49,458 nt of DNA, taken from contig JAFGLL010000058.1 of assembly GCA_016928095.1 (NCBI GenBank), forward strand, positions 1 through 49,458, given 5' to 3'. The DNA comes from Thermoplasmatota archaeon. Lineage in GTDB: Archaea; Thermoplasmatota; Penumbrarchaeia; Penumbrarchaeales; Penumbrarchaeaceae. Shown in pieces: positions 5,696-36,533 of this stretch. Made by a program: the position numbers and the translations under genes. Numbering within the stretch: the stretch's first letter is position 1; every line of letters starts with the position of its first letter. Under the pieces are notes generated by a model, which did not search any database, was not told where the DNA came from, and worked only from the letters and a program-made list of their open reading frames with translations.

Positions 5696-6015
5696 GGATG
5701 ACAAATCTGGATCACGTGGCTGGATACGAGGTGACGGAGGACCTCGGTCTTGTCAGGGCGAACATAGTCCGTGCCAAACACATAGGAAAGGACATCATAG
5801 CCGGTTTGAAGAACATCGTTGGAGGGGAGATCAGGGAGTACACGGAGATGATGTCCGAATCAAGGGAGATCGCGATAATGAGAATGACGGAGAAGGCCGA
5901 GGAACTCGGGGCGGATGCCATTGTAAACATTCGATTCATGACCTCCGGGATCATGGGGGGTGCTTCGGAGATAATGGCCTATGGTACCGCTGTAAGGTTG
6001 AAAAAGAAGAAATAA
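5692..6015 (+). CDS. YbjQ / UPF0145 family protein
   Basis: The 107-residue sequence matches the YbjQ (UPF0145, putative heavy-metal-binding) pattern. It has a GYEVTEDLGLVRANIVRA opening, a central helix-rich part with the repeated AxExxAxxLGADAIVNIRF block near 75-90, and a C-terminal strand ending in YGTAVRL. These small proteins form beta-barrel-like pentamers; their physiological role is not settled. It overlaps the preceding small membrane protein gene by 4 nt (ATGA), so that protein may be a membrane partner. A strong hairpin follows at 6021-6045. Confidence 0.9.
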   Translation: MRMTNLDHVAGYEVTEDLGLVRANIVRAKHIGKDIIAGLKNIVGGEIREYTEMMSESREIAIMRMTEKAEELGADAIVNIRFMTSGIMGGASEIMAYGTAVRLKKKK

Positions 6016-6020
6016 TAGCG

Positions 6021-6045
6021 CTGGACCATGGTTAAAATGGTCCAG
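6021..6045 (+). terminator. Hairpin after the ybjQ-like gene
   Basis: A perfect 9-bp inverted repeat (CTGGACCAT / ATGGTCCAG) with a 7-nt loop begins 6 nt after the stop codon. No strong T-tract follows. Position argues for 3' end protection or termination between two convergent units. Confidence 0.5.
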
Positions 6046-6099
6046 ACTGGAACATCCTAGGTAGTCTGTCAAACTTACCTGAAGTTAAAAATAAGATGA

Positions 6100-6124
6100 C
6101 CGCACCCGGTCGGACCGGGTGCGG
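6100..6124 (-). terminator. GC-rich terminator hairpin for the feo-side operon / small basic gene
   Basis: A perfect 10-bp stem (CCGCACCCGG / CCGGGTGCGG) with a 5-nt loop. On the minus strand it lies just beyond the stop of the 6146-6313 gene and is followed by a T-rich run (near 6083-6092), as expected of a terminator. Confidence 0.6.
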
Positions 6125-6145
6125 AATATTCTCTGGAGAGGGCCC

Positions 6146-6313
6146 TTACTTCAGTTCCTTGGCCTGTTTCGCGGATAGGATCCTCCAGCACTCGTGGGGA
6201 CCGGTGGGGGATTTTGCAACCGCGAAGAACCTGCCCTTCTTCTCCCTGATGTCAAACTTCGCTGTCTTGAACTTGTTCTTTGCCTTGACGTCGTAGAACT
6301 CTATCTCTTTCAT
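6146..6313 (-). CDS. Small basic protein of unknown function (55 residues)
   Basis: A lysine-rich 55-residue protein that opens with alternating strand-like residues (MKEIEFYDVKAKNKFKTAKF) and contains an RFFAVAKSPTGPHECWRILS core. The composition would suit a small nucleic-acid-binding protein, but I cannot assign a family. ATG 6313 is chosen because an excellent GGAGG site sits 9 nt upstream; a longer in-frame reading to 6412 has no ribosome site and runs through an AT-rich promoter-like region (6360-6400). It is probably monocistronic and ends at the 6100-6124 hairpin. Confidence 0.7.
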   Translation of the reverse strand: MKEIEFYDVKAKNKFKTAKFDIREKKGRFFAVAKSPTGPHECWRILSAKQAKELK

Positions 6314-30065: not shown

Positions 30066-31226
30066 TCAACCCTTCAGGGATGAGATGAACCGGGCGATCC
30101 TTCCTATCCCTTCCGTAAGTTCATCCCTCGATGCAGCATAGGACATCCTCATGTAGCTCTCTCCCGCGGTCCCGAACGCAGATCCGGGGGTCAGGGAGAC
30201 ATGTGCTTTCTGGAGGAGCATATCGGCAAGTTCCATGGATGGGATGCCAAGGTCGGTCCTGAAGAATGCATAGAAGGCCCCCCGGGGCATCTCGCAGCTC
30301 ACACCATCGATCTCGTTGAGCATCGGTATGACCATGTTCCTCCTCGCCCTGAACTCCTCCTTCATCGTCCTGACGCATTCATCTCCTTCTCTGAGCGCTG
30401 CAAGGGCACCCATCTGGACGAAGGCAGGAAGACATGTTAGGGAGTGCTGCTGGAGCTTGTTGACCATTTTAACGGTCTCCTTATCGGCCACCATCCACCC
30501 CACTCTCCAGCCGGTCATCGCATAGGATTTCGAGAACCCCGAGATCGTGATCACCCGGTCTCTGATCCTTTCAATGGAGCCTATGGAGAAATGCGTGTCC
30601 TCGTAGACGAGGTTCTCGTAGATCTCGTCGGAAATTATCCGGAGGTCGTGGTCCTCTGCGATATCGCCGATAGCCTTCAGCGTATCGGCCGATATTATGG
30701 ACCCTGTGGGGTTCGATGGTGTGTTCAGTATAATGGCCTTTGTCCGATCGGTCACCTTGGATGCGATGTCCTCGGGCTCCCAGACCCAGCTGTCCTTGTA
30801 TCTCATCCTTACAGGTACAGGTACACCGCCTGCCAGTTCTATCATGGGGCCGTAAGATACCCAGCCAGGATCGGGGTGGATCACTTCATCACCGGGATCC
30901 ACAAGAGCCTGGATGGTCCCGTACAGTGCAAACTTCGTCGGAAGAATGAGTATGTTATCGGAAGCGGCCTTGATACCGTTCTTGTTCGTCACATGAGCTG
31001 CGACCGCCTCCCGGAGCGGGGGGATGCCCGTTGACTGCACGTAATGGGTCATCCCATCGTCAAGGGCTTGTTTGGCTGCATCGATGATATGTTCGGGCGT
31101 TGGGAAGTCAGGCTCTCCCAGTGTGAACGATATCACATCTATTCCCTGGTTCTTCATCTGCTTGACCTTGTTGGCCAACATGACCGTTCCGGAAGGTTGG
31201 ACATCGCGTATCCTCTTTGAGAACAT
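30066..31226 (-). CDS. Class I aminotransferase (aspartate aminotransferase-like)
   Basis: A 386-residue fold type I PLP enzyme. The PLP-binding lysine lies in SGFSKSYAMTGWRVGW, and NTPSNPTGS and SDEIYENLVYE are the conserved cofactor loops. The opening block ISFTLGEPDFPTPEHI is standard for the aspartate/aromatic aminotransferase group of archaea. It transfers amino groups to 2-oxoglutarate in amino acid turnover, consistent with a protein-degrading lifestyle. The substrate among Asp, aromatic and Ala cannot be fixed by sequence inspection. Full length. It lies downstream of the candidate large RNA on the same strand. Confidence 0.93.
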   Translation of the reverse strand: MFSKRIRDVQPSGTVMLANKVKQMKNQGIDVISFTLGEPDFPTPEHIIDAAKQALDDGMTHYVQSTGIPPLREAVAAHVTNKNGIKAASDNILILPTKFALYGTIQALVDPGDEVIHPDPGWVSYGPMIELAGGVPVPVRMRYKDSWVWEPEDIASKVTDRTKAIILNTPSNPTGSIISADTLKAIGDIAEDHDLRIISDEIYENLVYEDTHFSIGSIERIRDRVITISGFSKSYAMTGWRVGWMVADKETVKMVNKLQQHSLTCLPAFVQMGALAALREGDECVRTMKEEFRARRNMVIPMLNEIDGVSCEMPRGAFYAFFRTDLGIPSMELADMLLQKAHVSLTPGSAFGTAGESYMRMSYAASRDELTEGIGRIARFISSLKG

Positions 31227-31302
31227 ATCAGCACCGGGCCACTGAACTTCGAATATGTATAAAACGGTATCTCACGGACAGGACCCTGTATCGACCCTTG
31301 AG

Positions 31303-32280
31303 AAAAAACCTTCAGAAATGACGATGGGGGAAGCAGCCTGAGCCACTTCCCCCATCGGCCCGGTTCCATGCGCATTAATGACCCGAAGGTCTCGGGGCAA
31401 CCTCCCGAGGGAGGTTCTAGGGACCTCGAAGGACCCTGACAAGCCCCCTTGAGGTATTTGGTGGTCCCGGGCGAACCCGGATCCTCCATGATCCTCAGGG
31501 CGGGGAGTCCTCCCGGGGACCGGGCGGACGCCTGTCATTCGGTTCATCCCAGAGCTCTTCTTTGACGGTCCTCTGCTCCCCGAGGGGTGCGGAGGTGTCA
31601 GAGGATCGCTCCTCCCACGAGGTCTTCCTTGGTTTTCGTTCCTCCGAAGAGGAGTGATCCCCAGAAGGATCCCGCAGATGTGGTCCATCTCCTTTTTCGT
31701 TTCCCTTCCGGGGAAGGGGGACGAGGGAAGGTCGAAGGGCCTCAGGATGACCGGTCCTCGCGGAGGGACGTCGTGAGACGTTCCACCACGGGAACGGTTG
31801 GATCCCAGGTCCCATCCATTTACCCGGAACGATCTCCCGAAGGAGATCCCTCTGGGTCCTGGGTGGAGCCTTGGAGATCGGGACCCTTGATGAAAGCAGA
31901 CCCCGAAGGGCCGTATTCCAATAGGGTACCGAACTCCACGGGTCCGATCCGCATGACGGCACTTGTCTCCCCCTATGCCGAGGCATCGGGGTCACCTTAA
32001 CTCCTTTAGGGTCCCTTTTGGGGACCTTTCTCCAAGGCCTTTTCTTCAACGGTCCCGAAGGACAGTATCGGAGCGGGTGTTGGGGATGAGAGAAAAGGTC
32101 GAATCCTTTTGATGTCGATCAAAAATGTTTGAACCGAGGTCCGAACATCCCTGATCGAGCGGTCTCAAATCCAAAGGACCTCTTCCGGAGAAGATTTCCT
32201 TTGGATCCCCTTTTTGCGCCGGAAGCTACATTCCGATCCGGACAACATGGACCGTTGGAACGCAACCGTTACCGGGTAAA
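31303..32280 (-). ncRNA. Candidate large structured non-coding RNA (about 0.98 kb), rich in UUCG-capped hairpins
   Basis: No credible protein gene covers this locus. Read on the minus strand it contains a series of short perfect hairpins. UUCG loops cap stems at 32052-32063, 31899-31912, 31831-31848 (7 bp), 31640-31653 (5 bp), 31467-31480 (5 bp) and 31380-31391. A UCCG loop lies inside a 10-bp outer stem at 32169-32206. CUCG loops cap 31975-31986, 31578-31587 and 31399-31416 (7 bp). Further stems lie at 32008-32028, 31768-31781 and 31703-31718. A TATA box (32299-32311) lies about 27 nt before the 5' end; a 12-bp stem (31322-31357) and T-tract (31303-31308) mark the 3' end. No RNase P, SRP or rRNA core motif was recognised. 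Strand is inferred mainly from UNCG loops; two stems have G-U pairs favouring the plus strand. Confidence 0.6.
31322..31357 (-). terminator. 12-bp hairpin with downstream T-tract at the 3' end of the large RNA locus
   Basis: CGATGGGGGAAG and CTTCCCCCATCG pair perfectly across a 12-nt loop. On the minus strand a run of six T residues (31308-31303) follows about 14 nt later. This could be the RNA 3' end or its terminal helix. Confidence 0.55.
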
Positions 32281-32298
32281 AAACTATATACATAGGCA

Positions 32299-32311
32299 AT
32301 ATATAAAAATT
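32299..32311 (-). promoter_or_regulatory. TATA box for the large RNA locus
   Basis: On the minus strand TTTTTATATATTG is a strong archaeal TATA element, with a second AT-rich run at 32283-32293. Initiation would fall near 32278, at the switch from AT-rich to GC-rich sequence. Confidence 0.55.
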
Positions 32312-32326
32312 TTCGTTCGACTCCAT

Positions 32327-32355
32327 TGGAAATTGTAACTTTTCTACAATTTCCA
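32327..32355. promoter_or_regulatory. 11-bp inverted repeat immediately upstream of the large RNA promoter
   Basis: TGGAAATTGTA and TACAATTTCCA pair perfectly with a 7-nt centre. It lies 16 nt upstream of the TATA box, where archaeal activators bind. It could equally be a 3' hairpin of a plus- or minus-strand transcript. A related CTCCAATGGAAATG occurs at about 32461 (compare CTCCATTGGAAATT at 32321). Confidence 0.4.
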
Positions 32356-32554
32356 CAGGCTTATTTTCATTCATAAGTCAATGGTAGTAATGGCATGAAG
32401 CTTGGTTTTATTGATAACTAATTGACGATAAAGATCAGGATTTAAAGAGAAACCATGCAACTCCAATGGAAATGAAACCCGGCACCTATTTATGGTTTTC
32501 TCCGGAGCGTTTTGGTGAGGGGGTTTGTCCCGGAGGGGTCAAGTCATTTCATCC

Positions 32555-33187
32555 TCAGCCCCTGGAAGAGGGTCCGAGCCGGTTCCTGATGATGCCGACG
32601 GAGGATATTCCCGCTTCTATTTCGTCTCCCGTCCTCAGGGTCCCCTCGCACTCTTTGATCTTGACCGCTAACAGGTCTCCGGGTGCAAGGGTCATGGTCC
32701 CGGAGATATGATGCATGGCATCCTCCAGGTTCATCTGAAGGTCCCTGGTGCTTGACTTGACCAGCTCCATGCCGTTAAGCTGCATGTATACCTCATGACC
32801 GTAGGGGTCTCCGATCTCCTGGGACGGGGTGAATTCGGATAGGGGACAGTAGGTATCACGCCCTTTGGCCATGTCCCATGGAAGCCCCTGCTCTCTTACC
32901 CTTGTGAGTAGATTACCATCGTAGATATCCATTAGCAGCCCGAAACCCAGCACCGAGGACATCTTCGCCTTGATGGAGGTCCCCGTGCGTTCACCGATCG
33001 CCATGGCATAGAAGATACCGAAGGAAAGCTCTCCACCCTCCTCTGGAGGGTTCACCTCCTCATCCTGGTGTATCACGGATGTCGCCGGCTTCAGGAAAAC
33101 GACAGGTGGGCCATCCTCTTCATTCACCTCGATGCAGACGATCTTTCCGATCTCGAACCTGTGGCTGCCCTGGACGAAATGAGGCAT
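32555..33187 (-). CDS. Fumarylacetoacetate hydrolase (FAH) family protein
   Basis: A 210-residue protein with the compact FAH fold. It has the KIVCIEVN and PVVFLKPATSVI opening, and the C-terminal block VYMQLNGMELVKSSTRDLQ leading to GTMTLAPGDLL and LRTGDEIEAGISSVG. FAH enzymes hydrolyse or decarboxylate beta-diketo acids, and small members include acylpyruvases and oxaloacetate decarboxylases. The substrate here is unknown. The length is typical of the short members. The gene is monocistronic and diverges from the 33280 gene. Confidence 0.85.
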   Translation of the reverse strand: MPHFVQGSHRFEIGKIVCIEVNEEDGPPVVFLKPATSVIHQDEEVNPPEEGGELSFGIFYAMAIGERTGTSIKAKMSSVLGFGLLMDIYDGNLLTRVREQGLPWDMAKGRDTYCPLSEFTPSQEIGDPYGHEVYMQLNGMELVKSSTRDLQMNLEDAMHHISGTMTLAPGDLLAVKIKECEGTLRTGDEIEAGISSVGIIRNRLGPSSRG

Positions 33188-33279
33188 GTGAGTGTAGCTT
33201 CCTCTCCATATTTTACCACTTTGCTGTCACAGGCTCCCAAAATGATAAATCCGGATGAACACATCGAGGGTGGATGAAC

Positions 33280-33627
33280 ATGGAGAGGGTAAGAGGTTCC
33301 CCCAGGTACCGGGAATCATTGAGCGTGCTGTGCGGAGGAAAGCTCCCCGGCAATGTACCTCCGTTGCTCGACAGGATCGCCATCTGTCTCGCTGAACCCT
33401 TGATATTCCCCGAACTTGTCGAGGAGATAGTTACAAACGAGGGGATCAAGGAGATCAGGATCCACCTGGCAAGGGTACAGATCGATTCCGAGCTAAGGAT
33501 GAGGCAGGATGTCGACTATCATACACAAAGGCTCTGGATGTCCCAGACCATGGAGAGGATGGTCTTCGGCGGTCTGATAATAGAAGGGGAGAAGACCAAG
33601 AAAGAAAACCATGAAGATGACGAGTAG
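33280..33627 (+). CDS. Hypothetical protein (115 residues)
   Basis: A mostly helical, charged 115-residue protein (central PLLDRIAICLAEPLIFPELVEEI) with an acidic Lys/Glu C-terminal tail. I do not recognise a family. ATG 33280 lies 6 nt after GAGGGTGG; ATG 33274 would abut it. The stop is TAG, rare in this window. It converges with the thioredoxin reductase gene, leaving one base between stops. Confidence 0.6.
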   Translation: MERVRGSPRYRESLSVLCGGKLPGNVPPLLDRIAICLAEPLIFPELVEEIVTNEGIKEIRIHLARVQIDSELRMRQDVDYHTQRLWMSQTMERMVFGGLIIEGEKTKKENHEDDE

Positions 33628-34561: not shown

Positions 34562-34730
34562 CTTGATCCCTCGTTACCGTCGGATATCCTTCTTTGATAT
34601 TACATTTGCTCCAAAATGAGGTATCTTCATTTAATCGGAAGGTCCAGAACCTTAATATAGGGTCCCTGAATATGAAGCGGTATAACTTATAAACCACTAG
34701 TACCTGCTTCCAGTACACAAGGTGCCTCCC

Positions 34731-36533
34731 ATGAAATGGATGACCATCACCATAGCAGCGATCGCACTACTCGGGAACTTCCTGTACATCATCGATCCCC
34801 CAACCATGGACCAGGATATAGGGAACGAAGATGACGACGAACAAGGTGGGGACGGAGGCGAACTCGAGGGGTCAGATATAACATCTCTTCAAGTACCACC
34901 GATGATGATAGGCGACCAGGCGAGGTACGATTATGAGCTTTTCGCCCAGATGTTCTGGGAGAACAAGACCTCCGGTGAATGGGGCAGGTACACCTTCACG
35001 GGGGAGGGTGAATTCCTTCAGTACGTCGACGAGCTCCAGGAGGCCGAGGATGGGTTCCATACGACCCACGAATCCATGGAGCTGTCCTACGAGACCAGGG
35101 CGTCCTTTGCCCTCAAGATCGAGGGCAGCGATGTTGACACCGTGACGATCCCGGGCACTCTCGAGCTACAGAGATCGGATTACACGAACGTCTTTGACAA
35201 ACATTCCCTGAAAGCTCACAATATTGGAAAGATAGCCGTCGAGAACCTTGGAGCCCTTTTTGGCGGCCAGGGAGCCGCACTGGCCGATGTCTCCTACATG
35301 GTCGACCTGAAAACATATCCCGATCCGAAAGATGATCCGGTCATATCCATGGACGATGCGATCTACGGTATGGACCAGGTCCTGACACTGAACTCCCGGG
35401 GGACCTATGAGGGTGAGCCCATATGGGGCGAGGAGGATCGCCAATATAACTGGACGGTGGAAGGCGCCTATACACTCCTGGAACATGACACTTTCAAGGT
35501 CAATGTCACCAGCGACCTGTGGGATTTCATCTACTTCAACAGGCAGTTCTACATTTCCGATGATTATCCATTCCCCCTCAAAGGTTACACGAGAACCAAC
35601 ACAAGCTACTACGGGAGTGAGGAGAGCTTCTATATCATACTCGAGACCAGGCAGCAGTTGAAGGATGAGGCTGGATCGATGAAGAGGGGTACCACGGAGA
35701 TCCCATGGGGAGACCCAACTGGCCATACGGAATATCCGGACCTGCATCCTGCAGGAGAGTATATGCGGTGGAGGTATGTTCCGGCAGACGGGAGCGAGGT
35801 CGACAGGTCCTCCTTCAGCGGGTTCACCATAAACGAGGCGGTCGACCATGCTATCAACACCTCCCCGGAGCTTCAGGATTTCATAGAAGAGTATGATATG
35901 AGAGGCGAGGTCGTTGTTGAACGAGCCCTCTGGAACAGGTCCTACGAGGACAGGCTGGAGAGGAACCAGACCTATTGGTGGAACCTTACCTTCTCCTATG
36001 TCTATGAGGATGAGGAGCTGTGGGAATACTACGAGGAGAACGAGGAATGGCCCGAATGGAGATACACCATCCTCGTGGCAAGGTCCAGCGAGGAATCCTG
36101 GAACGGGGACAAGGAGGTCTCCACCTTCATTGCAGGAGATGAAGGGGACAAATATTTCGGACGGAGGAGGGGAGGGGTGAGCGAGGAGAGTTTCAATGCA
36201 AACGATGAGATGGTCACTCTCACCCACTCGGAGAAGATCTTCCGTATTGACGATACGGTAAAAACGGGGGCGTTCCAGGACAATGTGCTTACCGATGATG
36301 TATGGTTCTCCTACAGTTTGGTCGGTGTCAACGAGCAGAACAATCAGGGCCTTGTTCTGATCCAGCAGATCACCGGCATCAAGACACCGACATCGGATAA
36401 TTCCTGGAGCCTGCAGAAGGATCAGGTTTGGAGCAGTGGAGCAACCCTGACATCGTCCGTGGATGCCAACACCGGCCAGCTTCTTTCTGTAATGACCGAC
36501 GATGGTTCAGAGCTGGCATCCATTTTCATGTAA
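34731..36533 (+). CDS. Anchored hypothetical surface protein, paralogue A
   Basis: A 600-residue protein. It has an N-terminal hydrophobic anchor (residues 3-20), an Asp/Glu/Gly-rich linker, and a large extracytoplasmic beta-rich region with many N-x-T/S sites. There is no C-terminal anchor and no catalytic motif that I recognise. Residues about 360-440 (a DHAINTSPELQDFIEEY segment followed by a NRSYEDR strand) resemble the same region of the next gene. A TATA-like TATAACTTATAAA at 34680-34693 gives a short leader; ATG 34731 follows AAGGTG, and GTG 34722 is the alternative. It is separated by 27 nt from the paralogue. Confidence 0.65.
   Translation: MKWMTITIAAIALLGNFLYIIDPPTMDQDIGNEDDDEQGGDGGELEGSDITSLQVPPMMIGDQARYDYELFAQMFWENKTSGEWGRYTFTGEGEFLQYVDELQEAEDGFHTTHESMELSYETRASFALKIEGSDVDTVTIPGTLELQRSDYTNVFDKHSLKAHNIGKIAVENLGALFGGQGAALADVSYMVDLKTYPDPKDDPVISMDDAIYGMDQVLTLNSRGTYEGEPIWGEEDRQYNWTVEGAYTLLEHDTFKVNVTSDLWDFIYFNRQFYISDDYPFPLKGYTRTNTSYYGSEESFYIILETRQQLKDEAGSMKRGTTEIPWGDPTGHTEYPDLHPAGEYMRWRYVPADGSEVDRSSFSGFTINEAVDHAINTSPELQDFIEEYDMRGEVVVERALWNRSYEDRLERNQTYWWNLTFSYVYEDEELWEYYEENEEWPEWRYTILVARSSEESWNGDKEVSTFIAGDEGDKYFGRRRGGVSEESFNANDEMVTLTHSEKIFRIDDTVKTGAFQDNVLTDDVWFSYSLVGVNEQNNQGLVLIQQITGIKTPTSDNSWSLQKDQVWSSGATLTSSVDANTGQLLSVMTDDGSELASIFM

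Follow-up and report, generated by a model that had tools for sequence, protein, structure and literature searches.

A predicted large structured RNA with paired ORB-like promoter boxes in one family of Thermoplasmatota archaea

The locus, its neighbours and its distribution

The window analysed in this study, the whole stretch of 49,458 nucleotides from a Thermoplasmatota archaeon, contains on its minus strand a segment of about 975 nt, located between the genes of a FAH-hydrolase fold protein and of an aminotransferase (Table 1). From sequence comparison we interpret this segment with high confidence as the gene of a structured non-coding RNA, its transcription being inferred and its predicted ends being accurate only to within a few nucleotides. 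Past the terminator of the RNA, the downstream aminotransferase has a TATA-like box of its own, equivalents of which were found, among the genomes inspected besides the window, in G002, G004, G006 and G007. Since each has its own TATA box, the RNA and the aminotransferase are, judging by sequence, separate units.

Table 1 Predicted features of the RNA locus and its flanking genes (window positions)
Feature	Position	Strand	Basis or remark
Aminotransferase class I/II (aspartate aminotransferase-like), downstream neighbour	30066..31226	-	Pfam PF00155, NCBIfam NF041091
TATA-like box of the downstream aminotransferase, past the RNA terminator	31255..31264	-	sequence
Predicted non-coding RNA	31303..32277	-	z = -10.3, 44 double-compensated pairs, homologs, no Rfam match
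U-tract after the terminator hairpin	31303..31308	-	sequence
Terminator hairpin, 16 bp	31322..31357	-	comparison across genomes
P1 3' strand (ACCGGGC)	31358..31364	-	pairing with 32271-32277
Variable array of tetraloop-capped hairpins	31365..32160	-	consensus structure, pair counts; unalignable between genera
P3 hairpin, UCCG/UUCG cap, long stem	32160..32218 (approximate)	-	5 double-compensated pairs within the genus
P2, conserved 5' hairpin	32224..32267	-	11-bp lower stem, 3-nt bulge AAC, 5-bp upper stem
P2 loop AUGUUGUCC	32240..32248	-	family-wide AYRYURUCC; most conserved sequence of the RNA
P1 5' strand (ACCCGGU)	32271..32277	-	pairs with 31358-31364; compensatory changes in 4 genera
Proximal BRE/TATA promoter of the RNA (CGAAAATTTTTATATA)	32298..32315	-	TATA aligned in all 7 genomes
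Proximal ORB-like palindrome TTTCCAATGGAG	32321..32332	-	-72/-73 from P2 in 7/7 genomes
Distal ORB-like palindrome TTTCCATTGGAG	32461..32472	-	same orientation, 140 bp upstream of the proximal one; 7/7 genomes
Second TATA-like box (CCATAAATAGG), upstream of the distal box	32485..32495	-	conserved ATWWATA column, 7 genomes
FAH-hydrolase fold protein, upstream neighbour	32555..33187	-	Pfam PF01557

Two further proteins of the window lack annotation: a 117-aa protein at 33274-33627, which has no Pfam or NCBIfam match and whose counterparts adjoin trxB in G001, G005, G006 and G007, and a 603-aa protein at 34722-36533, which has a hydrophobic N-terminal stretch, no Pfam match and relatives at the equivalent place in G006 and G007.

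A match to a known RNA or gene would have refuted an earlier reading made from the letters alone (hereafter the sequence-only reading), and none was found for the segment. The Rfam scan of the window gave no match at the gathering threshold and none that was credible at E<=1, a match to Spi-1 (E 0.82) being attributed to chance, and the scan of six homologous loci gave no match. That reading had also seen no RNase P or SRP motif here; indeed, genuine copies of RNase P RNA (RF00373) and of SRP RNA (RF01857) were each located at other loci in seven of the eight genomes of the family, and neither family matches the present RNA. In the source assembly neither of the two was found, probably owing to an assembly gap. 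The G001 bin holds two SRP RNA copies (G001:C275:2458 and G001:C114:11628), perhaps a duplicate or contamination.

The full RNA is present in a single copy in the source genome and is 79% and 69% identical to its counterparts in two genus-mates; plain BLAST detects no more than the 5' motif in the family's other genera. Pattern, synteny and covariance searches located the RNA, single-copy and syntenic, in seven genomes belonging to four genera of one Thermoplasmatota family, and its 3' part only, at a contig edge, in an eighth (G003). The aminotransferase lies downstream in every genome whose contig extends that far, the contig of G005 stopping within the RNA. A covariance model of the 5' hairpin P2 (R1) matches all seven genomes and found no further member among 390 genomes of the phylum, and the RNA was not found in viral and phage collections. 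Three weak motif matches elsewhere in the phylum (G144, G376 and G321) were judged to be due to chance, at least those in G144 and G321 falling in protein-coding sequence, as were other GTDB matches to the 21-mer (Natrarchaeobius, Labrenzia, Roseovarius and others), which were judged from taxonomy without inspection of their context. As far as sequence can show, this would be an undescribed RNA family restricted to one family of uncultivated archaea, of a kind, the large ornate RNA, known from bacteria. To our knowledge, the members of this kind described to date (OLE, GOLLD and ROOL) come from bacteria and phages; apart from rRNA, we met with no stand-alone RNA as large as this one from archaea in the literature searched.

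Folding, covariation and conserved elements

On the minus strand of 31303-32280 we counted 18 hairpins that have a tetraloop and a perfectly paired stem of 4 bp or longer, against 6.0 +/- 2.5 (maximum 13) in 500 dinucleotide shuffles. Nine of them carry YNCG-type caps (five UUCG, two CUCG, one UCCG and one CCCG), for which 500 such shuffles give an expectation of 0.26 and a maximum of 3. The sequence-only reading had listed six UUCG, one UCCG and three CUCG; the density it described is real, and its exact tally differs slightly from ours. When stems of at least 5 bp are required, ten such hairpins remain in the segment, while the runner-up among 978-nt blocks of the window contains five and the mean is 1.5.

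The whole stretch folds at -474.7 kcal/mol, with z = -18 against 20 shuffles and z = -10.3 against 60, so that the excess of folding energy over shuffled sequence which the sequence-only reading needed does exist (z of about -10, versus -0.6 and -1.7 for protein-coding controls of the same length). Individual 250-nt blocks of 31303-32280 are only moderately unusual, with z between -2 and -4.4, and it is the stretch in its entirety, not its single blocks, that carries the fold excess. ViennaRNA grants its tetraloop bonuses only to sequence written with U; the runs on T-written sequence, among them the 250-nt blocks and the coding controls, therefore understate the sense strand. The excess is found on the sense strand of all six homologous RNAs tested (z -5.8 to -10.5). 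Elsewhere in the window, the 250-nt block 6001-6250 also folds with a strong excess, whichever strand is taken (z -4.3 and -3.5).

The antisense strand folds nearly as well (z -3.6 to -8.1), and its RNAalifold consensus energy is about equal to that of the sense strand, which makes this energy uninformative for choosing between them. The choice of strand rests therefore on the promoter, the terminator, the G-U pairs and the types of loop. Because of G-U pairs, pairing is better on the sense strand, where 100 of 112 cells are paired in P2 (78 on the antisense) and 113 of 115 in P1 plus the terminator hairpin (102 on the antisense). The caps are of YNCG (UNCG-like) type in three genera (g1, g3 and g4) and of GNRA type in the fourth (g2; ten GCAA and two GUAA), both being, as predicted from sequence, loop types sensible on the sense strand. 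Sequence comparison thus supports the minus strand as the sense strand moderately well.

Within the genus, an RNAalifold consensus structure was derived from three genus-mates (69-79% identity). It comprises 326 predicted pairs, and 92.9% of the cells are paired. At 44 of these pairs both sides have changed with pairing kept, while shuffled controls give 18.2 +/- 3.2 (none of 500 reaches 44) and slid controls 11 at most. With only three sequences aligned, these counts are of cells and not of independent events. Pair counts between G003 and G004 were set aside, the two being 94% similar and too close to inform.

Across genera the middle of the RNA cannot be aligned and the length varies from 659 to 1556 nt; what is kept across the four genera is the 5' hairpin P2, the end-joining helix P1 and the terminator hairpin with a U-rich tail behind it. 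P1 occurs as CCCGGU/ACCGGG, CCUGG/UCAGG-type and CCAGU/ACUGG variants. In P2, double changes affect eight of the 16 pairs among seven sequences, with a covariation score of 0.446 versus 0.191 when shuffled; its upper stem, GGUCC/GGAUC, is replaced by GAUUC/GAAUC in G007. The G000 row of alignments A3 and A4 begins with G where the genome has A, at a position outside P2. We considered and rejected a pseudoknot in which the P2 loop would pair elsewhere in the RNA, an 8-nt match being present in G007 only (chance 0.04) and absent in the others. The hairpin and T-tract announced for the end of the segment are indeed there, and all 16 pairs of this terminator hairpin form in G000, G001, G002 and G004, and 15 of 16 in G007.

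The body of the RNA is modular. The GNRA hairpins of G004 are mostly spaced by 71-79 nt (about every 75 nt), and a 99-nt segment of G007 is duplicated at a 60-nt shift; taken together with the range of sizes, this indicates that hairpin modules are gained and lost in the body while the ends and P2 stay constant. As the locus is single-copy throughout the family and its body has changed almost beyond recognition, it shows which parts selection fixes, namely the end helix, one hairpin and the terminator.

The homologs in seven genomes and their compensatory changes provide the conservation and covariation whose absence would have counted against the sequence-only reading. Its central proposal, that the minus strand encodes one large structured RNA, is supported by synteny, compensatory changes, indels that ignore codons, and strand-specific G-U pairs and tetraloops, as well as by a promoter and a terminator of its own, in the relatives too.

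The promoter and its ORB-like boxes

A TATA box had been proposed ahead of the GC-rich part; it is present, together with a BRE-like sequence, and lies about 25 nt ahead of P1 in each of the seven genomes. Further upstream stand two ORB-like palindromes, a pair that is a new observation of this analysis. With up to two mismatches to TTTCCANTGGAR, the pair is found in all seven genomes with a spacing of 138-140 bp (131 in G006). The second TATA-like box, beyond the distal palindrome, is a possible second promoter, a function inferred from its sequence.

The palindrome TTTCCANTGGAR occurs at about ten places in the source genome and is paired within 200 bp only at the RNA locus. One copy lies 128 bp upstream of orc1/cdc6 and another upstream of mcm (L124:1501 and L123:1501), and it is possible that its presence at the RNA gene, orc1/cdc6 and MCM reflects an Orc1/Cdc6 or replication regulon. 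A regulon of stable RNAs, shared with the RNase P and SRP promoters, is unsupported: the box is not a general stable-RNA element, because the RNase P and SRP genes lack it, save one RNase P gene.

On the plus strand, CTCCAWTGGAAAT at 32320-32332 and 32460-32472 meets the ORB dyad TCCANTGGAAA(C/T), and the 3' G-string GGGG(T) of ORBs is absent from both of these sites. The dyad agrees, minus the G-string, with ORB consensuses from the archaeal literature, among them that of Methanomassiliicoccales (GTTCCAGTGGAAATGG-AGGGGT; PMC4153887) and TCCA[CG]T[TG]GAAA[TC][GA]AAGGGGT (PMC4164010). Archaeal ORBs share with the promoter boxes the dyad TCCANTGGAAA and a paired arrangement around mostly AT-rich DNA, but the boxes are tandem and not inverted, have no G-string and stand at a fixed distance from the TATA box. 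With a dyad that matches without the G-string, and a fuller ORB elsewhere in the family, we interpret the boxes as probable regulatory sites of the Orc1/Cdc6 type, an origin being possible and unproven. Whether an Orc1/Cdc6-type protein binds the RNA promoter is evenly poised, in the absence of binding data.

Other ORB-like sites were noted in the family. An ORB-like site with the G-string (TCCAATGGAAATGAAGGGGT) is found in G005 (L130:221), where two boxes are 183 bp apart; the region of this type of site is intergenic and conserved, adjoins the gene of a winged-helix regulator in each of four genomes (L130:221, L129:1501, L131:1501 and L132:1501), and is a candidate replication origin. A region common to G000 and G001 (L124 1300-1800; L089) is AT-rich; it lies upstream of orc1/cdc6 and contains one ORB-like box.

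Possible role and competing explanations

Starting from the gene, the structure and the promoter pattern that the comparison brings out, we lean towards a trans-acting RNA that scaffolds a ribonucleoprotein, with its own promoter and hairpin/U-tract end and with replication-linked transcription; its function and transcription are inferred, as are the binding of a partner, the scaffolding and the link to replication, and no partner protein or target RNA has been identified. That the RNA acts in trans and not on the neighbouring gene is likely; that it is a scaffold rather than a catalyst or an RNA-only cage is put forward more tentatively, at a little under an even chance. In such a scaffold, helix P1 would lock both ends and close the molecule, and P2 with its fixed loop may be what a protein or RNA partner recognises. 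The hairpin array would provide bulk or a multivalent surface under weak sequence constraint, and could gain or lose modules of about 60-75 nt without loss of function. Transcription might be controlled through the two ORB-like boxes, which would connect the RNA with Orc1/Cdc6 and with either replication or the cell cycle. Archaeal RNase P and SRP RNAs are likewise large and stable, with promoters of their own. As its promoter ties the RNA by sequence to the replication initiator, the function is directly testable. A more far-reaching proposal, a giant archaeal RNA family controlled by Orc1/Cdc6 through the ORB-like boxes and helping to initiate replication, organise the chromosome or control the cell cycle, remains speculative and on balance doubtful; if true, archaea would have a structural RNA linked to the replication origin.

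An RNA-only machine, either catalytic or, like ROOL and GOLLD, self-assembling into oligomers or cages, is unlikely but cannot be disregarded. GOLLD, ROOL and OLE form homo-oligomers (PMC12286853), and the present RNA resembles them in its size, its tetraloop-rich branching and its lack of an obvious partner; all are stand-alone, heavily branched RNAs of the 600-1000-nt range, supported by covariation and of unknown function. It also combines, like GOLLD, a conserved end with a variable part, and its unpaired loop AYRYURUCC is conserved. However, it has no Rfam match to GOLLD, ROOL or OLE, in sequence or by covariance, and the core outside P2 is not conserved in sequence, unlike the active site of a ribozyme. 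Moreover, the locus is archaeal, chromosomal and syntenic, without viral match, whereas GOLLD and ROOL are carried by phages and prophages, near tRNAs (PMC12286853). The switch of its caps from YNCG to GNRA between genera and the ORB-like promoter boxes further distinguish it from these RNAs.

A cis-acting leader, which would regulate the downstream aminotransferase as a giant riboswitch or attenuator, is improbable. The same gene directly follows the RNA wherever the contig extends, and P1 adjoins the terminator hairpin as in attenuators; this synteny is nevertheless unspecific, because the whole block of peptidase, aminotransferase, RNA, small ORF and trxB is conserved. The separate TATA box between terminator and aminotransferase start, in the window as in the four other genomes (predicted promoters, with unmapped start sites), and the lack of a compact conserved aptamer core both oppose a leader.

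Compared with the trans-acting scaffold, a purely DNA-level element, in which a replication origin would be flanked by hairpin-prone DNA and the transcript would be incidental, likewise has very little in its favour. The two boxes, about 140 bp apart, flank DNA of 68-74% AT in six of the seven genomes, and the ORB3-DUE-ORB2 arrangement of Sulfolobus islandicus, which spans 130 bp (PMC12141716), can be counted for an origin. Against it, the boxes are not inverted and lack the G-string, the spacer of G006 is only 41% AT, a better ORB (TCCAATGGAAATGAAGGGGT) exists elsewhere in G005, and the GC skew takes no clear turn; furthermore, an origin leaves unexplained the RNA-type tetraloops and the compensatory G-U changes of the 1-kb array.

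It is highly improbable that the transcript is a precursor cut into many small hairpin RNAs: similar hairpins do repeat, about 75 nt apart in G004 and duplicated at about 60 nt in G007, but they are not conserved in sequence as individual units, and the conserved end-to-end helix P1 and the long-range helices favour one molecule. Finally, a protein-coding gene or its remnant, for which the sense-strand open frames of up to 229 codons in the window might speak, is refuted, in line with the sequence-only reading, by the ten indels between G000 and G001, all of 1-2 nt and none a multiple of three (one further indel of 32-33 nt separates genus-mates), and by long open frames that change strand and frame among the relatives.
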